Part shown: one piece after another, positions 24,148-25,772 of the stretch | Position numbering within the stretch: the stretch's first letter is position 1 | Layout of the letters: each line of letters opens with the position of its first letter | NCBI RefSeq assembly: GCF_020295405.1 | Contig: NZ_JADEYP010000024.1 | Location: 1 to 64,000 of the forward strand | DNA: 64,000 bases | Reading direction: 5' to 3' | Origin: Sphingobacterium bovistauri | Lineage (GTDB): Bacteria > Bacteroidota > Bacteroidia > Sphingobacteriales > Sphingobacteriaceae | Notes under the pieces: generated by a model | What the model was told of the DNA's origin: nothing | The model's input: the letters and a program-made list of their open reading frames with translations, nothing else | The model's database searches: none | Translations under genes and position numbers: made by a program

Positions 24148-24181
24148 AAGAAGCCTTCCTCTTTTCGGAGGAAGGCTTCTT
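24148..24181 (-). terminator. thr operon attenuator (terminator and competing antiterminator)
   Basis: On the minus strand a perfect 14-bp stem (AAGAAGCCTTCCTC / GAGGAAGGCTTCTT, loop CGAAAA) ends in a U-rich tract, 43 nt before thrA. Ten bases of its 5' arm and loop (CTTCCTCCGA, plus positions 24165-24174) are exactly complementary to TCGGAGGAAG at plus positions 24213-24222, which are the last codons of the leader peptide. A ribosome stalled upstream leaves that segment free to pair and disrupt the terminator; a ribosome at the leader stop covers it and lets the terminator form. Confidence 0.85.
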
Positions 24182-24209
24182 AATATTTACACTCAATTGT
24201 ACACACAAG

Positions 24210-24278
24210 TTACTTCCTCCGAGAATTTGCCCCCGTAGTAATAATAATAGTTGTGATAATTGAGTTGATAATTTTCAT
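24210..24278 (-). CDS. thrL: thr operon leader peptide (22 codons)
   Basis: ATG 24278 to TAA 24210-24212. Residues 7-15 read IITTIIITT; in total 7 of 22 residues are Ile and 4 are Thr, followed by GANSRRK. Ile and Thr are the end products of the pathway fed by thrABC, so scarcity of either charged tRNA should stall the ribosome on this run. The overall shape recalls enterobacterial thrL but the sequence is different. It sits in the thrABC leader, 29 nt before the terminator stem, and its last four codons contain the antiterminator strand. It is regulatory: the peptide itself probably has no function. Confidence 0.85.
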   Translation of the reverse strand: MKIINSIITTIIITTGANSRRK

Positions 24279-24555: not shown

Positions 24556-25119
24556 ATGAACACAAAAAAACTAATAGCGTCAATGCTATTGATAGGCTTT
24601 TGTCTAGTGTCGCAAGCACAAACTACCAAAAAGAACGAGCAAGATAATCTTGCTAAAGAGTATTTTTCGCAAATCATGGGTGTGGCTGTAAACGCTACAA
24701 CTAATACTAAACTTTATCAGTTTGTATACGATTGGTTGGGCACACCTTACCGTTTAGGTGGTGATTCTAAACGCGGAATTGATTGTTCTAAATTCTCACT
24801 TGCAGTTTACGAGAATGTATTTAATACAACGATAGGATTCAACAGTAGAAATCAATATGCTAATGTTACCCCTGTCAGCAAAAATGATTTAGAAGCCGGA
24901 GATTTGGTTTTTTTCAAAATCAGAAGCAAAAGCATCACTCACGTAGGAATATATCTTGGAGATGACAAATTTGCTCATGCTTCATCAAGTAAGGGAGTCA
25001 TGGTAAGCAACCTAAATGAAGCATACTGGAAACGTTACTATTATAATGGTGGACGTCCTAAAGCAGAAGACTCGCAAACAATGACAGCCGATGCTGGAAA
25101 TTATAACGAGAAAAGGTAA
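24556..25119 (+). CDS. secreted NlpC/P60 (C40) peptidoglycan endopeptidase
   Basis: 187 residues with a signal peptide (ASMLLIGFCLVSQAQ). The NlpC/P60 domain has catalytic Cys77 (GIDCSKF), His129 (SITHVGIYLG) and a third polar residue His141 (FAHASS). Such enzymes cleave D-Glu-mDAP or similar bonds in stem peptides. No SH3 or LysM targeting domain is present. Monocistronic, divergent from the thr leader; the ~280-nt region between them holds both promoters. It is followed by a strong terminator. Confidence 0.88.
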   Translation: MNTKKLIASMLLIGFCLVSQAQTTKKNEQDNLAKEYFSQIMGVAVNATTNTKLYQFVYDWLGTPYRLGGDSKRGIDCSKFSLAVYENVFNTTIGFNSRNQYANVTPVSKNDLEAGDLVFFKIRSKSITHVGIYLGDDKFAHASSSKGVMVSNLNEAYWKRYYYNGGRPKAEDSQTMTADAGNYNEKR

Positions 25120-25730: not shown

Positions 25731-25772
25731 AATAAGAAAGGGTTAATGAAAAATTAACCCTTTCTTATTTTT
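25729..25772. terminator. bidirectional terminator between convergent genes
   Basis: A 17-19 bp perfect stem (AAATAAGAAAGGGTTAAT and complement) with loop GAAAA lies across the end of the PRTase gene and the last codons of the convergent MltD-like gene; T-rich on both exits. Confidence 0.75.

Follow-up and report, generated by a model that had tools for sequence, protein, structure and literature searches.

The thr operon of the window (the whole 64-kb stretch of DNA that was analysed) is preceded by a leader that is best explained as a ribosome-mediated transcription attenuator. From the sequence and from folding models, we give this reading a probability of about 0.92. As seen in Sphingobacteriaceae-type relatives, the element extends a known attenuator plan to a new lineage and is not a new design. 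The textbook thr attenuator is then not limited to Proteobacteria: co-variation across 18 genera makes it the rule in one Bacteroidota family, in a phylum whose control of amino acid operons has so far been little described.

Feature coordinates are given in Table 1. The leader ORF reads ATG AAA ATT ATC AAC TCA ATT ATC ACA ACT ATT ATT ATT ACT ACG GGG GCA AAT TCT CGG AGG AAG TAA on the minus strand. An earlier sequence-only reading had described 22 codons with an IITTIIITT run, 7 Ile and 4 Thr in total, which direct reading of the sequence confirms. It had also placed a perfect 14-bp terminator 43 nt from thrA; the hairpin stands, with the sequence AAGAAGCCTTCCTC(CGAAAA)GAGGAAGGCTTCTT, and the distance from its end to the thrA ATG is corrected to 42 nt. 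A 28-nt linker separates the leader stop codon from the hairpin. Lying between the ORF and the first gene of the operon, the hairpin has the form of an intrinsic terminator, with TTGTT directly after it. The T tract 3' of the hairpin is uneven (CTTCTTTTGTT); in the RNA, this is a broken-up U tract (CTTCTTTTG), a point against the attenuator reading. The exact 10-nt complementarity claimed between the last leader codons and the terminator arm and loop, TCGGAGGAAG with CTTCCTCCGA, is likewise found on reading the sequence. Together with the spacing and the folding model described below, it predicts, at the level of sequence, an antiterminator pairing that would be mutually exclusive with the terminator. 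A promoter-like sequence ends 17 nt upstream of the leader ATG. It (TTTG...TATCTTAG) was called by its likeness to the Bacteroidota promoter consensus; similar TTTG/TTG - N - TAnnTT pairs lie 5' of most of the 42 leaders considered below.

Table 1. Features of the thr leader and operon in the window, in order of transcription
Feature	Position	Strand	Basis or remark
Promoter-like sequence, Bacteroidota-type: TTTG, 21 nt, TATCTTAG	24328-24325 (TTTG); 24303-24296 (TATCTTAG)	-	sequence only
Leader ORF, 22 codons, MKIINSIITTIIITTGANSRRK	24278-24210	-	ATG start; TAA stop at 24212-24210
Strand 1, within leader ORF control region	24266-24242	-	pairs with 24215-24190; family partner-swap test
Control codons, Ile/Thr run IITTIIITT	24260-24234	-	sequence; Ile/Thr-rich leaders in orthologues
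Putative antiterminator strand TCGGAGGAAG (strand 2 of 2:3), final leader codons	24222-24213	-	exact complement; spacing, folding model
Strand 2 region, partner of strand 1	24215-24190	-	duplex folding, partner-swap test
Putative intrinsic terminator hairpin (3:4), perfect 14-bp stem, 6-nt loop	24181-24148	-	co-varying stem, 42 sequences
Strand 3 CTTCCTCCGA, antiterminator target, terminator 5' arm and loop	24174-24165	-	sequence, duplex pairing
thrA, fused aspartate kinase - homoserine dehydrogenase	24105-21655	-	Pfam AA_kinase, ACT, NAD_binding_3, Homoserine_dh
Probable thrB (homoserine kinase)	21671-20631	-	overlaps thrA end; name from sequence and position
Probable thrC (threonine synthase)	20625-19318	-	name from sequence and position

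The fold of the 173-nt leader beats 200 of 200 shuffles (z -5.2), and the linker pairs with the terminator 5' arm better than any of 200 shuffled linkers. Perfect hairpins of at least 12 bp are not rare, occurring at 8 places in the window. Chance is excluded because of the combination of leader and hairpin and its conservation, not because of the hairpin by itself. We consider it very improbable that there is no switch at all, with the hairpin terminating constitutively (for example, a transcript from upstream) and the ORF being low-complexity sequence that arose by chance. A low-GC genome does yield AT-rich Ile/Thr codons cheaply by chance, and the other perfect hairpins also speak for that explanation. 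However, no transcript comes in from upstream that could end here: the nearest upstream minus-strand ORF of at least 100 aa has its end at 25754, and on the plus strand a divergent ORF begins at 24556. The leader ORF is also the sole one of its kind, no other ORF of 12-45 codons with at least 8/10 Ile/Thr being found on either strand of the 64 kb. That all 42 orthologues keep the arrangement, with co-varying strands and a fixed footprint spacing, argues further against a constitutive terminator.

Of the 61 family genomes searched, every one matches the query protein and 49 encode a full-length ThrA relative. We analysed the leaders of the 42 thrA orthologues most similar to that of the window (62-100% identity, 18 genera, one family). 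Every one has a leader rich in Ile and Thr codons, as a leader-peptide attenuator of such an operon should, and a terminator-like hairpin before thrA; the start codons of L012, L032 and L036 were assigned by hand. The peptides are diverse (1-8 Ile, 2-9 Thr), with both residues always there and their ratio shifting. Named relatives of the window ThrA include members of Sphingobacterium (83% identity), Parapedobacter, Pedobacter, Mucilaginibacter and Daejeonella. Leader and hairpin occur again in named members of these five genera and of Empedobacter; the contig of one named relative, L097, was too short to be judged.

Comparison of family leaders for compensatory changes, a check suggested along with the sequence-only reading, came out in favor of the attenuator: leader and hairpin are conserved in the 42 orthologues, and the strands co-vary. 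The terminator stem is 97.9% paired across the 42 sequences. Both sides change in 5 of 10 pairs; the 46 cells with such double changes were not equalled in any of 500 shuffles. Strand 3 changes from CTTCCTCC to CTTCTCTC in L008 and L011, where the leader has GAGGGAAG, and to GTCCCG in L025 and L027, where the leader has CGGGGC. RNAalifold on a MAFFT alignment recovered the terminator stem and nothing else; it misses the pairing of strands 1 and 2 (1:2) because this slides between genera. We therefore used per-sequence duplexes and a partner-swap test in its place, in which each strand takes its partner from the homologous strands in other genomes (5000 permutations). Mean duplex energies over the 42 leaders were -15.3 kcal/mol native versus -12.3 swapped for 1:2, -16.4 versus -14.8 for 2:3 and -22.7 versus -17.6 for 3:4, and none of the three native means was equalled in 5000 permutations. 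With one sequence per genus, the swap z-scores were -4.4, -1.8 and -5.4, respectively. By this test, the support is firm for 1:2 and 3:4 and weak for 2:3, as expected because the strand 2/3 motif is almost invariant; the 2:3 and 3:4 constraints are not independent, since strand 3 is common to both.

A ribosome with the last control codon in its A site protects about 12 nt past the first base of that codon. Strand 2 starts 12-28 nt past this base in 41 of the 42 leaders (14 nt in the window), and the stop codon lies between -12 and +17 nt relative to the strand 2 end. For attenuators of this kind, the position of the stop codon in region II is an acknowledged design variable (PMC1183508). We modelled how the nascent RNA folds once it has been transcribed as far as the terminator loop, with fixed ribosome footprints and equilibrium assumed. 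When a ribosome is stalled at the last control codon, 39 of 42 leaders have a predicted antiterminator probability above 0.5; when it is at the stop codon, none of the 42 does. As modelled, this is the geometry required of a stall-and-release switch. Spacing and model thus agree with the earlier proposal of a thr attenuator in which stalling on the Ile/Thr codons would leave the antiterminator strand free and a ribosome at the stop codon would mask it. In the full-length equilibrium fold of the window sequence, the terminator is still favored with a stalled ribosome (0.84), and the switch would therefore rely on co-transcriptional timing.

The proposed mechanism runs as follows. A ribosome would translate the leader while RNA polymerase transcribes it. 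When Thr- and Ile-tRNA are charged, the ribosome would reach the stop codon and cover TCGGAGGAAG, so that the terminator forms and transcription ends before thrA. When charging with Thr (or Ile) is low, the ribosome would stall on the run and occupy strand 1, leaving TCGGAGGAAG free to pair with the emerging terminator 5' arm and loop and so permit read-through into thrABC. Without translation, 1:2 should favor termination in many relatives, and probably does so weakly or not at all in the window's own sequence. What the sequences show is the anatomy, its conservation, the co-variation and the footprint geometry; that termination, translation of the leader and the response to Thr and Ile take place in vivo is our inference.

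The role of strand 1 is where a variant of this explanation must be weighed. In the window species, only 2:3 and 3:4 might matter, with read-through in the absence of translation; attenuation itself is retained. We regard such a three-strand device, the simpler design of the sequence-only reading, as possible but rather unlikely. The pairing by which strand 1 would mask strand 2 without a ribosome co-varies family-wide, but in the window it is predicted not to win: the nascent 2:3 antiterminator dominates without a ribosome in the window (P 0.95) and its nearest relative L002 (0.95-0.96 for the two), and the state without translation is therefore uncertain in the window. Nor is 1:2 better than shuffles in the window sequence (p 0.195) or in L002 (p about 0.2). 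Against the variant stand the co-variation of 1:2 across the family and the 17 of 42 ribosome-free transcripts in which 2:3 stays below 0.5. Furthermore, the minimum-energy structure of the full-length window leader contains 1:2, and this pairing forms first in transcription, an order that equilibrium folding ignores.

The attenuator would work like the enterobacterial thr attenuator; we note a likeness of plan and make no claim of common descent. Escherichia coli K-12 thrL, taken through the same steps as a control, shows the same layout. Both precede the same operon, with Thr/Ile control codons and strand 1 in the leader ORF. In both, the final leader codons hold an antiterminator strand with a 10-nt exact complement in the terminator 5' arm, and a terminator lies just before thrA. 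In E. coli, GGTGCGGGCT covers the last three codons plus the first stop base and is exactly complementary to AGCCCGCACC of the terminator. The sequence-only reading had called the window's design simpler than the four-strand enterobacterial one because its antiterminator strand is in the coding sequence. This argument fails, as E. coli thrL has the same arrangement. A co-varying strand 1 in the leader ORF also pairs with the strand 2 region family-wide, so that a four-strand layout is present. A trace of the simpler design survives in the window itself, where 1:2 is predicted to lose to the antiterminator. The strand sequences (GGAGGAAG/CTTCCTCC) differ from those of thrL, 1:2 is weak in the window (-13.4 versus -25.8 kcal/mol in E. 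coli) and the footprint spacing is 14 nt versus 9 nt.

No Rfam family matches the window at gathering level. A permissive search returned Thr_leader (RF00506) and chance matches; the top match is Thr_leader at 34.0 bits (E 7e-5 in a 301-base search), below the gathering cut-off of 55, and the relative L020 scores 40.6 bits against the same cut-off. The alignment spans the whole model (1-118), both 1:2 and terminator stems; several pairs of the first stem are non-standard. Scores near 34-40 bits could arise by convergence, from a low-complexity Ile/Thr run and a hairpin. An attenuator that senses a protein or small molecule, with the short ORF incidental, is extremely unlikely. We found no point in support of it, the Ile/Thr codons and the pairing strands carry the conserved information, and the top Rfam match at any level is Thr_leader at full length. 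The 22-aa leader peptide, which is very short, has no match in Pfam or NCBIfam up to E 10.

Our search of the literature, partial in coverage, found nothing specific on a thr attenuator in Sphingobacteriaceae or Bacteroidota. Within the phylum, leader-peptide-like sORFs have been noted in Bacteroides thetaiotaomicron (PMC7366714). The Flavobacterium psychrophilum transcriptome gives clues for leader-peptide attenuation before amino acid operons, with structured 5' elements without Rfam hits before pheA, hisG and others; no thr element is named in the main text of that paper (PMC9723704). The Flavobacterium thrA leaders that we found are of a different type from the window's. Attenuators with leader peptides in actinobacteria and firmicutes (PMC1262725, PMC2965389) are similarly ribosome-mediated, serve amino acid genes and lie outside Proteobacteria, but belong to other phyla and other genes. 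As a coupling-dependent switch, the attenuator would also be of use for testing transcription-translation coupling in Bacteroidota.

A sequence model of the leader, R1, matched 271 of 395 genomes of the class, most of which have nothing but weak, terminator-like matches; matches at E <1e-13 fall exclusively in the window's own family. In the window's own genome, R1 found no second thr-like copy, and the next matches inspected were ordinary terminators.

Many other Bacteroidota families have a second type of thrA leader, which we observed in 28 sequences outside the terminator-type group (24 named records, L127-L168, and 4 from genus g5, L045-L048; further records L171-L192; example L145:1344-1433). 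Here the Thr/Ile run adjoins a short co-varying mini-hairpin such as ACCCCTTAGGGGT, and the stop codon lies in or just beyond it. Several lineages have the hairpin strands exchanged (ACGGG...CCCGT, as in ACGGGGTAACCCGT). The 28 leaders were chosen by eye for the hairpin, so its presence reflects selection; the phase of the stop codon does not. The offset of the stop from the first base of the hairpin is almost constant: 6 nt in 15 leaders, 15 nt in 11, 12 nt in 1 and 21 nt in 1. Most have a conserved CATATNATCC-like motif about 10-14 nt after the hairpin or stop, and a hairpin scan between mini-hairpin and thrA found no intrinsic terminator in nearly all. At E <0.001, a sequence model built on these leaders had matches in 34 of 296 genomes of the class. 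Among 19 matches examined, 17 have a downstream ORF of at least 100 codons, and 16 of these 17 start like ThrA or aspartate kinase; the exceptions, L199 (another ORF start) and L183 and L186 (no such ORF), are weak matches.

The odds seem to us about even that Bacteroidota have two structurally different Thr/Ile-sensing thrA leaders: the terminator-based one in Sphingobacteriaceae-type genomes and a few Weeksellaceae, and the second, without a terminator, in Flavobacterium-, Cyclobacterium- and Chitinophaga-type families. If so, the second type would represent a ribosome-sensing element of a new class, its output perhaps Rho-dependent. It looks more novel than the terminator-type finding, and its occurrence in neighbouring families raises the question of how the same control logic passed from one RNA device to another.

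Two Weeksellaceae have terminator-type leaders. L103 (Empedobacter tilapiae), with a ThrA 64% identical to the window's, has an Ile/Thr leader of this type, unlike Flavobacterium; in L112 (Epilithonimonas hominis; ThrA 53% identical to the window's), the leader was read by eye. This suggests that the operon was transferred together with its attenuator.

Other amino acid genes have similar leaders. In the window's own genome, pheA (L202; G000:C70, near 18000) is preceded by a Phe/Tyr-rich leader, MKNFNTYYFNFFYFSNKSWDKYLVLK, and then a terminator hairpin, with a complementary strand CTGGGAC in the leader, read by eye. From its sequence, this is apparently a second attenuator of the same design in that genome. 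Upstream of hisG (L201:1210-1269; G000:C11) lies a His-rich leader, MTKFFTYHFHSHHRHCGDM, with a short hairpin ATCGCC-ATTGC-GGCGAT just 5' of the stop codon and no clear intrinsic terminator, resembling the second thrA leader type. The thr model also matched leader-like ORFs and terminators before other amino acid genes in other families, whose names we inferred from protein starts: hisG (L073, L075, L079), pheA (L074), ilvN-like (L076), leuA-like (L077), ilvD-like (L078) and ilvA-like (L082). Example leaders are MNNALIINNHHHHHV before hisG, MTNKNRYYFFFYPTPTKG before pheA and MKNIINIAVIIIIIIIR before ilvN.
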